DNA of 39,310 bases, from NCBI GenBank assembly GCA_020056225.1, contig JAGVIE010000057.1, positions 1-39,310 on the forward strand, in the 5' to 3' direction. Origin of the DNA: Bacteroidota bacterium. GTDB lineage: Bacteria > Bacteroidota > Ignavibacteria > UBA10030 > SZUA-254. Within the stretch, counting starts at the first letter, position 1, and each line of letters starts with the position of its first letter. The notes beneath the pieces are model-generated. The model had not been told where the DNA came from. It did not search any database and worked only from the letters and a program-made list of their open reading frames with translations. The position numbers were made by a program, and so were the translations under genes. Of this stretch, positions 3,101 to 8,498 are shown in pieces.

Positions 3101-3140
3101 TGACCTCACCCGTAACCCTCTCCTATGAGGAGAGGGTGCA
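3101..3140. repeat. Short palindromic repeat (ACCCTCTCCT/AGGAGAGGGT)
   Basis: A perfect 10-bp inverted repeat, 3115-3124 with 3128-3137, closes a 3-base loop. The preceding CCTCACCCGTAACCCTCTCC wording is the kind of dispersed intergenic repeat seen across many bacterial genomes. It lies just after the stop codon of the DUF4139 gene and before the true terminator. Confidence 0.6.
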
Positions 3141-3156
3141 AAAACATCCGCCCCTT

Positions 3157-3190
3157 AAAACGGCTCACCCGATAAAGTGAGCCGTTTTTA
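3157..3190 (+). terminator. Rho-independent terminator after the DUF4139 gene
   Basis: The stem AAAACGGCTCAC (3157-3168) pairs with GTGAGCCGTTTT (3177-3188) across an 8-base loop, and the second arm runs into a T-rich tract (TTTTTATTT). The A-tract on the other side makes it usable in both directions. Confidence 0.85.
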
Positions 3191-3300
3191 TTTAAAATAC
3201 GTTCATTATTAGTGTTTTTTAGTAAAAATGATTTTTATTTGACTATGAATTGGATGTTTTATATTTTGAGCTAGCCAATTTCATCAGAATGTAAAGAACA

Positions 3301-4185
3301 ATGTTTTACAGAAGAAAAATACTACTTGCTTTGTTGGAAGCTTGCGGAGGTGAATTAAACAGCACAGATATGGAGAAACTTCTTTTCCTTTTTTGTAAAG
3401 AAAAGGGAGTAAATTATTATGACTTTTTCCCTTACCGCTTTGGATGTTTCAGCTTCCTTTCATACCAAGATAAACGGGTACTGACACAGCAAGAATATTT
3501 AGCAAACGATGAGGGTTTCCGAGCCGGTTCGAGTAGATCATTCTCTAGAAGTCTTGAAACTGAGGATAAACTGTTTCTCAAAGATTTTGCTTTCCGGACT
3601 AAGCACTTACGCGGAGACGCTTTAGTTCGGCATGTGTATCTCAAGTATCCATATTACGCAAGCCGCAGTGAAATCAGGAATCGTGTTCTGAGTAAAGTAG
3701 AACAAGCAATGATTACACCATATGCACATGATAAGAACGATATATGCTTGTTTACTATCGGTTACGAAGGATTGACGATTGATGCTTATATTGATAAGCT
3801 CATTCACAATAATATTGCCATGGTTATCGATGTACGGAGAAACCCAATTTCAATGAAGTACGGATTTAGTAAGACTCGCTTTTCGAATTATCTAAATCGT
3901 TCGGGTATTTTTTACGAACATTTTCCTGAGTTAGGGATCGCTTCGTCTAAAAGGAAAAATCTTGAGACAAAGAAAGATTACACACTGTTGTTTAAGCGAT
4001 ATGCAACTACGACGCTACCACAATGTGAGGATAAACTTGAAAAAATCCGACGTTTTCTCGATGCACACAAACGTGTAGCCTTAACCTGTTTCGAGGCAGA
4101 GACTACATCATGTCATCGCCACAAAATCACAGAACTACTTCAAGCAAATAAGAATTGGAATATTCCTATTGTCCATATTTCGTAA
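3301..4185 (+). CDS. DUF488 domain protein with N-terminal helical domain
   Basis: A 294-residue two-part protein. Residues 1 to about 140 form a mostly helical region beginning KILLALLEACGGELNSTDME, reminiscent of the start of SocA/DUF4065-type domains (weak resemblance only). Residues 151-294 are a DUF488 domain: FTIGYEG at 151-157, DVRRNP at 177-182, and a conserved Cys/His cluster CFEAETTSCHRH at 263-274. DUF488 function is not firmly established; the Cys-rich C-terminal motif is its most conserved part. No strong ribosome site is visible. The next gene starts 17 bases after this stop and is very likely co-transcribed, suggesting a functional pair. Confidence 0.85.
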   Translation: MFYRRKILLALLEACGGELNSTDMEKLLFLFCKEKGVNYYDFFPYRFGCFSFLSYQDKRVLTQQEYLANDEGFRAGSSRSFSRSLETEDKLFLKDFAFRTKHLRGDALVRHVYLKYPYYASRSEIRNRVLSKVEQAMITPYAHDKNDICLFTIGYEGLTIDAYIDKLIHNNIAMVIDVRRNPISMKYGFSKTRFSNYLNRSGIFYEHFPELGIASSKRKNLETKKDYTLLFKRYATTTLPQCEDKLEKIRRFLDAHKRVALTCFEAETTSCHRHKITELLQANKNWNIPIVHIS

Positions 4186-4202
4186 CATTTGCGGAGGCAT
4201 TC

Positions 4203-5072
4203 ATGGCGTACTTACCGGAAAATCTTGATCAAGTTAAAGTCCTTATCACCGTAAAAACATACCCTCTCCCGTCTAATAAATATGAAGAACTTGTGTGTAC
4301 GGCAGGTGTTTTGGAGAATGGTAATTGGATTCGCATTTATCCTATTCCATTTAGATCGCTGCCGAAAGATAAGAAGTTTGAAAAATATGAATGGATTGTA
4401 GCGGATCTGGTAAGAAACAAAAGTGATTTTCGACCTGAAAGCTACCGACCTAAGTCCGATGCCTCGAATATTCGCATTCTTGAAAAAATTGGAACTGAGC
4501 ATGAATGGGCTGAACGTAAGAAATACGTATTGAAAGAAGTATTTAATTCATTTAAGGAATTGATCCAGCGAGCAAAGAGTGATGAAAAAAAATCGCTTGC
4601 CACGTTTCGACCTTATAAGATCATTGATTTTATTATTGAGGAAGACAAGCGAACGTGGAAAGAGCAATGGATTGCAAACTATGACCAGTACGACATTTTC
4701 GAGATTGACAAAAAGGGTGAGGGTAAATTAAAGAAGATTGTTGGTAAAGTTCCTTATAAGTATTCGTATCGGTTTCTCTGCGAAGATGAAAAAAGCCCAA
4801 GGACACTTATGATTGAAGATTGGGAAATAGGAGCATTGTATTGGCATTGTCTTGCTCAAGCAGAGAGCGATGAAGAAGAAGCAAATCGTCTCGTGAAGAA
4901 AAAGTATTTTGATGAATTTGTAATGAAAAAAGATTTGTGTTTCTTTGTTGGCACTACCAAGCGATATCACAACGTTGGACCAAACCCGTTTGTCATTATC
5001 GGTGTGTTTTACCCTCCGACAAAAGACGATCGGGGACAACAGAACTTGTTTGCTAATGAAACTGGTTATTAG
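4203..5072 (+). CDS. Conserved hypothetical protein, partner of the DUF488 gene
   Basis: The frame is open from 4155, but the ATG at 4203 has an excellent GGAGG site (4193-4197) at 5-base spacing, giving 289 residues. I cannot name the family. The N-terminal region contains ITVKTYPLPSNKYEELVCTAG (about residues 15-35) followed by GNWIRIYPIPFR (40-51), which looks like a conserved beta-strand motif; a charged helical middle (DEKKSLATFRPYKIIDFI) and a final beta segment (LCFFVGTTKRYHNVGPNPFVI) follow. There is no signal peptide or membrane helix, so it should be cytoplasmic. Tight coupling to the DUF488 gene suggests the two proteins act together; from memory such neighbours recur, but I cannot verify that here. 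Confidence 0.75.
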   Translation: MAYLPENLDQVKVLITVKTYPLPSNKYEELVCTAGVLENGNWIRIYPIPFRSLPKDKKFEKYEWIVADLVRNKSDFRPESYRPKSDASNIRILEKIGTEHEWAERKKYVLKEVFNSFKELIQRAKSDEKKSLATFRPYKIIDFIIEEDKRTWKEQWIANYDQYDIFEIDKKGEGKLKKIVGKVPYKYSYRFLCEDEKSPRTLMIEDWEIGALYWHCLAQAESDEEEANRLVKKKYFDEFVMKKDLCFFVGTTKRYHNVGPNPFVIIGVFYPPTKDDRGQQNLFANETGY

Positions 5073-5501
5073 CAATTGGAGCCGAGAATGTTAATTATTA
5101 AGGCGATGACAACAGGTAGGATTTTTGTAACACTAACGAATACTAGGACCACAGATGAAAACATTGACCACATTAAACACTAATGAACACATTGAATACT
5201 AGAATCACTGTAACTTATTGATCCCTATATATCGGTGGTGCAGAAATTCGCCTCGATCTTTAATATCGGTGCAGTTTTACGTCGACCAAGTGTCTACGTC
5301 TGGCGCACACACCAAATTCGTGAGGCGCTCACGCTCAAAAGATCGTCCTTTTAACTGCCTCGGCTTATCTTTATCTTATATCCAGCATTCGACAATGTGG
5401 CTCTCGTATCGCTGGTTGACGAAGGCAGACTTTGCAAGGCTTGGCCAGCATTGCAAGGTCGATTTAATTAACGGCATAGAAATAATTCGCAGGAGATAGT
5501 T
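5073..5501. other. 429-bp non-coding gap with degenerate low-complexity repeat
   Basis: The stretch from about 5110 to 5210 is an A/C-rich series of near-copies (ACACTAACGAATACT, CCACAGATGAAAACATTG, AACACTAATGAACACATTG) resembling the CCACAGATTAACAC-type low-complexity repeats common in bacterial intergenic DNA. Downstream, a small inverted repeat GTGAG-GCG-CTCAC lies near 5320-5332, and TTGCAAGGC/TTGCAAGGT occur as a short direct repeat near 5434-5459. A 93-codon open frame at 5218-5499 has no family resemblance and a biased composition, and is not called as a gene. Confidence 0.5.
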
Positions 5502-6065
5502 ATGGTATTGGTACGTAGTTTGTTCAGCACACCAACGAAAAGGGAATCAAAGCATAAACAAATACGAGAAGAGTTTTTCTCCGGGTTCGCTGATAAGGTC
5601 TGGAGTTTAAAAACAAACAAGGAGGAGAAGGGATGGTGGACCATACCTAGAACCATGCCACTCATTATGACACTCCTGAACATACTGGATAAGAAGGGTA
5701 ATATGTCTCGCGTCTATTTAGAACTTTGGTGCCGCGCTTTCGATGAGGGAATTGTTGAGGTAACTGATGAGGAAATCCACGCCTATGCTTGTGGTTTTCT
5801 CTCCTCAAGAGGTGCTCGGACCTGGCGGGAGAGGATTGTAATGTTAGAAAAATTGGGGTTCATAAAGACACAAAGCATTGCGAGGCGCAAGTACAAATAC
5901 ATTTTACTATTGCACCCACACAAAGTGATTGCTTCACTCAAGGAAGACGATAAAATTCCTAATAATTGGTATGATGTTTTTCGCAATCGAGCCATTGAAA
6001 TTGGTGCCGGGATACCACAGGTGCAAGACGATGAAAAGAAAAAACAGAAGAAAGCTACAGCTTAA
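5502..6065 (+). CDS. Conserved hypothetical protein, probable winged-helix fold
   Basis: A 187-residue protein starting at an ATG with an AGGAG site about 8 bases upstream. Not recognised by name. The middle reads as a helical bundle (PRTMPLIMTLLNILDKKGNMSR and YLELWCRAFDEGIVEVTDE), followed by RGARTWRERIVMLEKLGFIKTQ and a basic beta-hairpin-like RRKYKYILLLHPHKV, which together resemble a winged helix-turn-helix of the kind found in plasmid replication or phage proteins. The C-terminus is very lysine-rich (EKKKQKKATA). Similar small proteins are, to my memory, scattered across unrelated bacteria, consistent with horizontal spread. It has long non-coding DNA on the left, so it is probably its own transcription unit. 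Confidence 0.7.
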   Translation: MVLVRSLFSTPTKRESKHKQIREEFFSGFADKVWSLKTNKEEKGWWTIPRTMPLIMTLLNILDKKGNMSRVYLELWCRAFDEGIVEVTDEEIHAYACGFLSSRGARTWRERIVMLEKLGFIKTQSIARRKYKYILLLHPHKVIASLKEDDKIPNNWYDVFRNRAIEIGAGIPQVQDDEKKKQKKATA

Positions 6066-6248
6066 AAGAACCAACACCTCATAATACATGTTAAGTGTTT
6101 TAATGCTGTAAGGGTGGAATGGATTGACTTAGATGATATAACTTTTGTTTTTGTTACAATTGCTTTGCCCTGAGATCTGCAGTTACCCTCAGTATGAAGT
6201 TCTCTCATAAATCGAGATTTTTTACGTTCAACATTTGATATTACATCT

Positions 6249-7172
6249 ATGAGCCAAACAGATCCAACACGACCAGACGATATTCCTTTTTTGAAAATCT
6301 TCTTCAAATCATATTTGGTTGACCACTTCTTGCACAAACAAGTAACTCTGTTGAATATACTGGAGAACTATTCGAAGCTGAAGGATGAAGTAATGCAGGG
6401 AGCTGGTGAAATTGACGATGCACAATACCTTTTGTCACTTAGAACCGAAATCAGGGCCAATCTTTTTCAGGCTATCGAGACCTTATTCGAACTCATCTTT
6501 ACCCTCGAGGGTCGGAACGGTGTCATTTACAATCCGTACATCTGGTATCATCTTTCCACCTCTCATTGGAGGAAAAATCTTAGCAAAATAGAAGCGATCG
6601 GAAATGGTCAAGTCGATTTTTTAGATCGGATCGTTATTGCAAATCCTAAGACCAAATTGAAAGTTCCTTTTGTTCAATACGTTTTTTATTTCGGCTGTGT
6701 CGACATATCATTGATGCCTGCAATCCTGAACAGCCTCCAACCTATAAAGTCAATATTGATTGCACTTGCAAAGGAATTCTCCGACAGGGATGAGTATAAT
6801 GCCTTCAAACATTCCCTGCGATTATTTCCTATTATCCGGTTCTTTGAATTCTACAAGCAGGGAATAACCGACCCATTACTAAAAATCGATTTGAGTAATT
6901 CTCTCACGGTTCTTAAAAAAGGAACAGATGACTCTATGGTTTTCCAGATTAAGCCCCTCGATACAGTTAGGGATTACAGAATGTGCCTCTTGTGTTGCAA
7001 CCTGATCTCGAACATAGTTAGGAGCCGTCGAGCCCATTTCTATAAGGGTGAATCCGTTTCTCTTAATACATTTTCTGAAGAAACGCTACCTTGGGCAACC
7101 GAATCGCATACGAAGGTTAACCCAATGACCATTAAACTAAGCGCTAATAATGAAACAAATCCACAGGGATAG
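6249..7172 (+). CDS. Hypothetical protein, all-helical, unknown function
   Basis: A 307-residue protein with no family I can name. It appears largely alpha-helical without a signal peptide or convincing membrane helix. Visible motifs are a helix RANLFQAIETLFELIFTLEG (about residues 70-90), the segment DEYNAFKHSLRLFP in the middle, and RSRRAHF near residue 255, an R-x4-H arrangement seen in HEPN-type ribonucleases, although that short motif occurs by chance. There is no Shine-Dalgarno sequence before the ATG, which is common in this phylum. It sits alone between two gaps, in the same accessory-looking stretch as the DUF488 pair. Confidence 0.65.
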   Translation: MSQTDPTRPDDIPFLKIFFKSYLVDHFLHKQVTLLNILENYSKLKDEVMQGAGEIDDAQYLLSLRTEIRANLFQAIETLFELIFTLEGRNGVIYNPYIWYHLSTSHWRKNLSKIEAIGNGQVDFLDRIVIANPKTKLKVPFVQYVFYFGCVDISLMPAILNSLQPIKSILIALAKEFSDRDEYNAFKHSLRLFPIIRFFEFYKQGITDPLLKIDLSNSLTVLKKGTDDSMVFQIKPLDTVRDYRMCLLCCNLISNIVRSRRAHFYKGESVSLNTFSEETLPWATESHTKVNPMTIKLSANNETNPQG

Positions 7173-7499
7173 AGCAACTCGTAGAAGTTTCCATCTGTCG
7201 CCTTCCGCTGCCGCTCATGAGCGAGCAGCTTTTGTGGTTGCGCTATTGTTTGCTCATTCATGTTTGCACACTCTTTCGTGCACAACCACTCGCGAGCGAA
7301 TGGCTGCGAAACATCTAAAAGTGCGACTTCCTCTTTAGCCCGTCACACAAAGCCCCACTATTTTTCAAGATTTATTTTATGCACTTGCTCTTGCTGTCGC
7401 ATTCCGTATAATTAGCGACATCACTTGTACATTCTGCCAATCAGAAATTTAGCTATCATACAACACATTTTTTTGCTTAACAACTCAAAGGAGTAAACC
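7173..7499. other. 327-bp non-coding gap with strong palindrome and promoter
   Basis: It contains a hairpin built on the perfect 12-base palindrome CGCTCATGAGCG (7212-7223), flanked by GCTGC (7207-7211) and GCAGC (7225-7229), and a second inverted pair GTGGTTG (7234-7240) with CAACCAC (7283-7289). The right part carries the promoter for the next gene. A 62-codon frame across 7150-7338 is the by-product of this palindromic DNA and is not called. Confidence 0.55.
7385..7412 (+). promoter_or_regulatory. Sigma70-type promoter for the small membrane protein gene
   Basis: TTGCTC (7385-7390), a 16-base spacer, and a perfect TATAAT (7407-7412), followed by a leader of about 80 bases to the start codon at 7500. 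Confidence 0.55.
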
Positions 7500-7853
7500 A
7501 TGGACAAAGCCGGGAAAAGTCTTTTCGTTTTTGGTCTCTATATGATTTTCATTGTAGGGATGGGATTCATCTTTATGCCGACATTCATACTCGATATGTT
7601 TGGTTTGAAGTATGGCGACGACACATGGATAAGATTCGTAGGACTATTAGCTTCAATAATAGGAGTCTATTATATCGTAGCCGTAAAAGCGAAGTTGAAT
7701 CAGCTATTTATCTGGACTGTCTGGATGAGATACTATGCTGCCGCTTTTATGGTAACGCTGCTAATCTTAGATAAGGTCGGGTCACCGATTCTTATCTTCG
7801 CTTCAGTCGACGCCATCGCGGCGACATGGACTTTGTTATCTTTAAAGAAATAG
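7500..7853 (+). CDS. Small integral membrane protein, four predicted helices
   Basis: A 117-residue protein with an AAAGGAG site 7 bases before the ATG. Four hydrophobic segments are visible: about 8-30 (FVFGLYMIFIVGMGFIF), 43-62 (WIRFVGLLASIIGVYYIV), 70-90 and 95-113. Basic residues lie between helices 2 and 3. It resembles the many short four-helix bacterial membrane proteins annotated as hypothetical; no catalytic or metal-binding motif is apparent. The downstream broken outer-membrane-type gene starts 18 bases after its stop, so the two were probably an operon. Confidence 0.8.
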   Translation: MDKAGKSLFVFGLYMIFIVGMGFIFMPTFILDMFGLKYGDDTWIRFVGLLASIIGVYYIVAVKAKLNQLFIWTVWMRYYAAAFMVTLLILDKVGSPILIFASVDAIAATWTLLSLKK

Positions 7854-7871
7854 GGTTAACCGAGTTATACA

Positions 7872-8421
7872 ATGACAATTCGATACCGTTTTATTCTACT
7901 TGTATTTTTCATTGCATCGCCATGCGGCAATCCCCCTATCTATGCGCAAGAATCTTCGTTCAACGCTGATAGCCGTTACTATTGGGCTGATGTCGGTATT
8001 GGAGGGGCTTGGGTATACGAAGGAATAGGTTCGCCTACAGATAAATCAGGATTTTCGATAGGGCTCGGCTTATACTATAGGAAAGGAAATGAGCTATTTT
8101 CATTACGAATCACCGGTACTGTAGAACCACGAATGCACCTGTGGGGAAATCAGCCGGACGAGAGCATCTCGGAATACGGCGTGCTCTATGGCAGAGTTAC
8201 AAAAAGCATCTTACGGCGTTGCATCCGTTTCCGGAGGTATCAGCATTGTGGTTGTATCGCTTTATACTTCGTTTACAACCGTCGGGATTCCGTTAGAAGC
8301 GCAGCTCATTTGGACACCGACTAAAGTTTTCGGGATCGGTTTCAAGGGATTTGCAAATTTGAATCCTCAGAAATCCTTTGCTGGATTGTTATTCTGTATA
8401 GAACTTGGAAAACTAAGATGA
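7872..8421 (+). pseudogene. Exported beta-rich protein gene broken by a one-base frameshift
   Basis: The first frame (7872-8324) has a signal peptide ending near IYAQ, then alternating beta-strand sequence (DVGIGGAWVYEGIG, FSIGLGLYYRKGNE, FSLRITGTVE) like a small outer-membrane beta-barrel. After YGVLYGRVTK the frame turns into Arg/Cys-rich nonsense, while the coherent continuation (ASYGVASVSGGISIVVVS to FAGLLFCIELGKLR) lies in the next frame and ends at 8421. Removing one A from the AAAAA tract at 8201-8205 restores a single protein of about 182 residues ending in a typical beta-barrel terminal strand. It is either a recent pseudogene, a phase-variable homopolymer, or an assembly error; these cannot be told apart here. 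Confidence 0.75.
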
Positions 8422-8498
8422 AGACGAGCGACACACATCCAGCGTTGTGTCGTACCTGCGGCGAAGCCGTCCTCTGGGAAAGTGAGTCGCACTTTATC

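Follow-up and report, generated by a model that had tools for sequence, protein, structure and literature searches.

The locus examined here raises the question of what two closely spaced genes do together, the first (gene A) encoding a protein in which Pfam recognises DUF488 and the second (gene B) a protein without a Pfam match. Both lie in the window, the whole stretch of 39,310 nucleotides from a Bacteroidota bacterium that was analysed, and a first-pass annotation made from the sequence had taken them for a candidate two-gene system of the kind often found in defence, in toxin-antitoxin pairs or in nucleic-acid modification, and the pair may indeed have a role of one of these kinds, as its setting suggests. 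The description of two genes 17 bases apart (4186-4202) with a strong ribosome-binding site on the second agrees with what was found, the site reading GCGGAGG and the start of gene B being placed at ATG 4203 in preference to the TTG 4155 of the automatic open reading frame list (Table 1).

Comparison with PADLOC-DB 2.0.0 identified both genes: gene A matched PDLC04505 with 353.7 bits over residues 1-293, gene B matched PDLC04508 with 374.5 bits over nearly its full length, and both HMM components of PDC-M19 are present and adjacent. The pair is the PADLOC phage-defence candidate PDC-M19, an entry that has candidate status only. The earlier view of both proteins as being of unknown function stands as regards their activity and falls in another respect, since both already carry PADLOC models. 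No name, mechanism or test of PDC-M19 was found in a literature search that was non-exhaustive and placed preprints outside its scope; the method behind the PDC candidate list is described in the accessible part of PMC12988326. Neither protein scored above any NCBIfam cut-off, and gene A is the sole DUF488 match found in the host genome.

Table 1. Positions in the window of the gene pair, its predicted domains and the island that holds it
Feature	Position	Strand	Details
Accessory island with the pair	3108-8495	.	5.39 kb; blastn of the window against L228 (same-family genome), 75 bases there
Gene A (PDC-M19A)	3301-4185	+	294 aa, ATG to TAA
Panacea-like domain, A residues 1-137	3301-3711	+	hhalign against SocA_Panacea; VIA to 7yk3_B
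DUF488 domain, A residues 146-294, rhodanese/phosphatase-like fold	3736-4182	+	PF04343; VIA
C-x-E-x5-C-H-R motif, codons 263-273, presumed active site	4087-4119	+	61-sequence alignment; putative enzymatic role
Ribosome-binding site GCGGAGG of gene B	4191-4197	+	sequence; 5 bases 5' of ATG
Gene B (PDC-M19B)	4203-5072	+	289 aa, predicted tandem OB-fold
First OB fold, B residues 2-110	4206-4532	+	invariant E29, C32, R44, D75, R77, R105; boundaries estimated from VIA
Second OB fold, B residues 111-277	4533-5033	+	invariant D206, W207, G250; boundaries estimated from VIA

Near-obligate pairing of genes A and B

Loci were picked for gene B from genomes (the best 80 of 549 confirmed, by a narrower B profile) and from viral contigs (39, from the B profile), and a DUF488 gene adjoins B in 80/80 and 39/39 of these respectively. 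By record title, the genome loci include Bacteroidota, Chlorobi, Chloroflexota, Cloacimonadota, Bacillota and Thiotrichaceae. The pairing of A and B is near-obligate and far beyond chance; this gene-neighbourhood check bears out the fixed pair proposed by the first-pass annotation, while rare co-occurrence of the two families, which had been named there as the outcome that would tell against it, is contradicted by the same adjacency. Chance neighbours are likewise ruled out by these counts. In a tally of 145 loci, which includes copies of the window and near-identical phages, A lies upstream of B on the same strand in 125 (among them L004, L016 and L017, in which B is interrupted), a short A is convergent with B in 14, B comes first in two, three have no open B frame by the B model and one is without A. 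The distances among A proteins and among B proteins correlate over 117 pairs with r 0.83, against a permutation maximum of 0.19, host relatedness being left in.

A match to B was found in 23/72,556 plasmid records, 11 of the 23 being predicted conjugative, and in 7/50,697 phage records, all of them Gordonia. When 11 of the 23 plasmids were inspected, DUF488 adjoined B in nine, of which L210 was assigned by sequence only and L208 has a partial B, and did not in two plasmids of Sulfolobales. In these two, pSOG2 and a plasmid of Saccharolobus shibatae, the gene after B (L024:5846-6352 and L203:6858-7349) is not DUF488 and encodes a protein whose EID...E(A/M)K pattern resembles that of PD-(D/E)XK nucleases; no family or structure match was found in support of this. 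In a Streptomyces plasmid, what appears from the residues to be a helix-turn-helix is joined to DUF488 and the fusion is paired with B (L205:4786-5478).

DUF488 as a whole is broad, being found in 66/247 sampled genomes of the phylum, and on this ground A might be an ordinary metabolic or housekeeping enzyme beside which B came to lie by chance. This is highly improbable, as the pairing is near perfect across phyla, phages and plasmids. The distribution is also patchy, with B-family matches, some of them weak or broken, in 21/296 sampled genomes of the phylum, and a relative has a near-empty site where the window has the pair.

The near-empty site concerns the island around the pair. In G172, a genome of the same family, 90 bases separate the matches to the two genes that flank the island, upstream a DUF4139-like gene (28.4 bits, under the Pfam cut-off) and downstream a gene which we take to be a fructose-bisphosphatase, and a gain of the island here rather than a loss in the relative is favoured because of the patchy distribution. 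The G+C content is 0.38 for the pair, 0.40 for the island and 0.43 for the window, and two orphan genes in the island (5502-6065 and 6249-7172) have no PADLOC, NCBIfam or above-cut-off Pfam match. Of the earlier description of an accessory-looking stretch rich in repeats, the accessory part holds, given the lower G+C and the near-empty site, whereas the repeats proved to be short two-copy matches of the kind that chance gives and one degenerate array just 3' of B (5138-5209, about 2.6 copies of a 28-base unit). Further on in the window, two overlapping frames at 7872-8421 resemble pieces of one exported protein and are possibly a broken gene.

Predicted folds of the two proteins

The predicted model of A (pLDDT 96.1, pTM 0.92) agrees with the earlier claim that this DUF488 protein carries an extra N-terminal domain: about 145 residues precede the DUF488 fold and form a confidently predicted separate domain. 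By Pfam, DUF488 (PF04343) spans residues 160-280 with 84.5 bits against a cut-off of 22.2, DUF488-N3a (PF22751) is a near miss below its cut-off (26.9 bits against 27), and the PADLOC models PDC-M45B and PDC-M45C also match A, with 45.4 and 38.8 bits. In the VIA comparison the C-terminal domain resembles tetrapyrrole methylases, diphthine synthase and PTP-fold phosphatases, with Z 8.2 to 10.1 in the rows listed, presumably the range expected for the rhodanese/phosphatase superfamily. The Cys/His cluster, noticed as intact from the single sequence, is also conserved in relatives: an alignment of 61 A proteins shows no variation at C263, E265, C271, H272 and R273. The DUF488 domain is presumably an enzyme, and catalysis would fall to A. 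In a 2023 treatment of the rhodanese-phosphatase superfamily, Burroughs and Aravind reportedly predicted DNA-end processing for the DUF488 clade. The related DUF4326 is proposed, in the part of PMC9503650 that was available, to process terminal phosphates on ADP-ribose. A separate observation, and a possible lead on ligands near DUF488, is an archaeal ParB-CTPase-fold protein fused to DUF488-HTH, for which CTP binding is reported in the excerpted text of PMC12704722.

Comparison of the N-terminal domain of A with a SocA_Panacea alignment (nine loci) gave an hhalign probability of 94 over 122 columns, against 0.1, 0.6 and 2.0 for three unrelated alignments that served as controls. The C-terminal parts of DarG (12 loci) gave 29, and the Panacea and DarG alignments compared with each other gave only 1.7. 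The Pfam profile SocA_Panacea (PF13274) had no match on A at E up to 1. At the level of structure, the domain matched the DarG chain 7yk3_B with VIA Z 11.8, at 3.1 Å over 135 residues, this being the only listed row that falls wholly inside the N-terminal part; judging from its length and the aligned motif, the chain is probably the C-terminal part of DarG. A sequence search of solved structures with A returned nothing convincing, the sole hint again being the DarG chain, at E 0.56. The Panacea-like domain is absent from the convergent and short forms of A and is therefore not essential.

The predicted model of B (pLDDT 92.1, pTM 0.88) consists of two OB folds like those of single-strand DNA-binding proteins, at moderate scores. 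The first Foldseek matches were RPA, CST and telomere end-binding proteins (TEBP) at E of about 2e-5, with large rmsd and TM-scores of 0.23 to 0.30 by query length, and VIA placed LEF-3 highest (Z 7.3), followed by RPA70 (6.3) and the HIN domains of HIN-200 (near 6); all of these listed structural neighbours we take to be OB proteins. With RPA, CST, TEBP and HIN-200 the model of B shares a tandem OB architecture; it differs from them in that a sequence search of solved structures (PDB) with B gave nothing convincing, and in that B has a conserved set of E, C, R and D residues. Thirteen positions are invariant across 61 aligned B sequences, including D206 and the six listed for the first fold in Table 1. 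B may bind exposed DNA, as the modelled folds would lead one to expect, and its invariant E, C, R and D residues leave room for B being an enzyme in its own right.

A second type of OB protein also occurs beside DUF488. Cassettes of Pfam DuOB with two DUF488 genes, possibly of the PDC-M45 type, were seen at L212-L214, and DuOB with at least one DUF488 at L211. These resemble the pair in having an OB-type protein next to DUF488 genes and differ from it in having two DUF488 genes and no Panacea-like domain seen there. The sequence link between B and DuOB is also weak: DuOB (PF22557) is unlisted for the B of the window at E up to 1, a Sulfolobus homologue of B reaches 18.7 bits against a cut-off of 27, and the profile-profile comparison gave an hhalign probability of 15.

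Loss pattern, other partners and neighbouring genes

Among 395 genomes, 22 loci were found with a near full-length A free of stops, and a twenty-third, L254, has a fragmented A. Of the 22 loci, 14 have an intact B, five a B with stops or frameshifts and one a B cut by a contig edge, while in two B was not found; two of the five interrupted copies are sisters with the same stop. In the sister genomes G011 and G016 (L016 and L017), B has a shared in-frame TAG with A intact. In the reverse direction, A is intact in 15/15 of a phylum sample picked for intact B, and no stop interrupts the DUF488 domain in any of the 80 genome loci chosen by way of B, a contig edge cutting it in one; A is odd in four of the 80, L103, L108 and L126 (N-terminal part) and L115 (contig edge). 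The comparison of 8/22 with 0/15 gives a Fisher p of 0.012, or 0.027 once one sister and the contig-edge case are removed, for samples that overlap, are small and are uncorrected for kinship. B thus appears to depend on A more strongly than A on B, as would be expected of a toxin and its antitoxin, and A proteins with other partners could give the same loss pattern.

Since B is lost beside a surviving A more often than A beside a surviving B, the pair may also be read as toxin and antitoxin: B would be harmful on DNA, and A would be the keeper that docks by means of the Panacea-like domain and possibly repairs damage through DUF488, until infection upsets A and frees B; the logic would be that of DarTG, with unrelated catalytic parts. 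Such a keeper would suit both the eight loci in which B is broken, absent or cut and the stop-free DUF488 domains of the 80 genome loci, with the limits on the loss samples given above. Panacea is described as an antitoxin domain in the available part of PMC8832971, yet short forms of A without the Panacea-like domain still accompany B. Furthermore, where B is missing, A may sometimes be paired with something else, its neighbours in such loci including SSB, HipA-like or DUF3037 genes. Convergent gene order, which is unusual for toxin-antitoxin pairs, also occurs here and, all considered, the reading is rather unlikely.

The A proteins without B were followed in viral contigs, a search of which for A gave 62 loci, 60 of them newly fetched and 21 of these on contigs already seen. 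No B was found in 15/60 of the fetched A-type loci. SSB or ERF/YqaJ genes lie within 4 kb in 13/15 of the loci without B against 3/45 of those with B, a comparison biased towards the loci without B, since that set supplied three of the five query sources (L262, L263, L207, L028 and L296); leaving out the 21 of the 45 B loci whose contigs had already been chosen for B (names compared by eye) turns the second figure into 0/24. The loci L262-L266, L311 and L321 are related prophages (DNA identity 86-95% for the listed pairs); they lack B and have an SSB gene close to the gene of an A-type protein, the SSB gene of L262 being divergent from A. A second group is suggested by the prophages L288, L290, L296, L303 and L319, the alignment comparison among them covering L296 and L303; in all five a DUF488 gene that is short or a fragment lies close to a YqaJ exonuclease, joined by ERF in L296 and L303. 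In L311, L319 and L321, A is represented by fragments alone, and L274, L290 and L319 end so soon after A that a downstream B would be invisible. Given the two prophage groups, the fragments, the early ends and the queries taken partly from the same loci, the SSB/ERF/YqaJ link amounts to about three independent cases. A recurring theme may nonetheless be discerned, that of DUF488 beside a single-strand DNA-binding or DNA-end protein. At L240:9-1471, an A without B stands behind HipA-like and DUF3037 genes.

Mobile settings of this kind raise the possibility that the pair is a helper in the DNA metabolism of phages and plasmids, acting in end processing, recombination, anti-restriction or DNA marking, with no role in host defence. 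In L296 the YqaJ exonuclease, with ERF upstream, ends 4 bases before the short relative of A; in Mu-like phages the pair lies near structural genes, with Portal_Mu relatives in 7/39 viral loci, which also fits a phage-serving role; and nearly half of the matching plasmids are, as noted, predicted conjugative. However, this is unlikely, as the pair is also chromosomal in the sampled genomes of the phylum and has restriction genes near it in some loci, and its place in Gordonia phages points elsewhere. In Nymphadora and Eviarto the pair stands beside the immunity repressor; in Nymphadora it consists of genes 42 (DUF488) and 43 (B), flanked by gene 41, a relative of Kita gene 44 (37% identity), and by the repressor gene 44, with a one-base overlap between genes 43 and 44. 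Its relative Kita has no such pair, although the integrases are 99% identical, and the two phages differ by the exchange of a segment rather than by a clean insertion, because their repressors have no match to each other. The slot is similar to that of CarolAnn 43/44, which are, in the accessible part of PMC6426606, prophage defence genes cotranscribed with the repressor, and of another kind.

The first-pass annotation had also named enrichment in defence islands as a point to check. When 1,611 neighbours of 119 loci were clustered, and the clusters named by Pfam from one representative each, the recurrent neighbours included an integrase (12 loci), HsdM (10), Mu portal (10), HsdS (9) and HsdR (9); no conserved third gene is fixed among them, the largest cluster reaching 12 loci. 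At E up to 1e-10, 353 PADLOC families were matched by the 128 flank genes scanned (of 464) and 47 by the 118 control genes scanned (of 216, on 18 stretches from the same phylum as the window), a rough comparison in which families and not genes are counted and the flanks belong to other genomes, in part from other phyla. The top eight Pfam families of the flanks include N6_Mtase (4), ResIII (4), HSDR_N (3), HsdM_N (3) and Fic (3), all of them missing from the first 25 of the controls; the controls too hold one type II methyltransferase with a restriction enzyme and a few other defence matches. A direct search found relatives of HsdM in 8/80 and of HsdR in 7/80 genome loci, against 0/18 control stretches (1,240 against 271 kb); the excess of type I restriction is small, and 18 controls are too few to make it firm. 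As to enrichment, the flanks match more defence-family models than the controls, in a rough comparison with unmatched controls.

A possible mechanism and its relation to known systems

Given the excess of defence models in the flanks and the carriage by phages and plasmids, a conflict module fits, and it is tentatively suggested, as the reading to which we would give first place, that the pair is a mobile two-gene module, PDC-M19, directed at DNA, in which B binds DNA, DUF488 acts there and the Panacea-like domain restrains it. B, as a predicted tandem OB-fold protein, would bind exposed single-stranded or end DNA, and the DUF488 enzyme of A, of the rhodanese/phosphatase superfamily, would then act on the B-bound DNA or on groups attached to it. 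The Panacea-like domain of A would dock on B or on the DNA complex and restrain this activity, and the restraint would be lifted once foreign or damaged DNA appears; the purpose would presumably be antiviral. Among the points that weaken this module reading are the fold matches of B, of moderate strength and none above VIA Z 7.3, and the failure of the Panacea and DarG alignments to match each other. It also counts against the reading that, according to the available part of PMC12409345, the PADLOC candidates PDC-M63AB and PDC-S04 gave no defence in a native host. Most of the evidence is shared between the DNA-directed module, the toxin-antitoxin pair and the phage or plasmid helper.

Comparison with known systems places the pair near DarTG and PanAT. 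The N-terminal domain of A has the fold of the DarG chain in 7yk3 and, as in DarTG, A combines an enzyme domain with one that may bind a partner; in contrast, the B of the window is a predicted OB-fold protein and not an ADP-ribosyltransferase. Membership of DarTG was rejected, there being no match to DarT (PF14487) in the host genome G000 and no Pfam match to a macrodomain in A. With the PanAT pairs it has in common a Panacea-like domain beside a fixed partner gene, whereas the domain of A lies below Pfam detection and is joined to DUF488, and the partner is a predicted twin-OB protein; the word DUF488 is absent from the main text of PMC8832971. A more specific and quite improbable version would have the Panacea/DarG-type domain imitate or gate single-stranded DNA on its twin-OB partner while DUF488 makes or removes a modification at DNA ends or ADP-ribose-like adducts, a DarTG-like switch built from unrelated parts; this would be a new two-part immune chemistry directed at DNA and shared by bacteria, phages and plasmids.

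What is added here to the candidate entry is the Panacea-like domain, the twin-OB fold, the swaps of partner, the asymmetry of loss and the near-empty site, part of which may already stand in Burroughs and Aravind 2023. DUF488 is widespread in the phylum and is still a domain of unknown function in Pfam; the pair links one branch of it, across phyla, to an OB-fold partner and a Panacea-like domain. The pattern of A kept and B lost, together with the swaps of partner, yields sharp predictions that separate a sensor-effector logic from that of a toxin and its antitoxin and, given that the pair is present in a group of phages, those of Gordonia, for which a lysogeny system already exists, a long-standing unknown is made testable.
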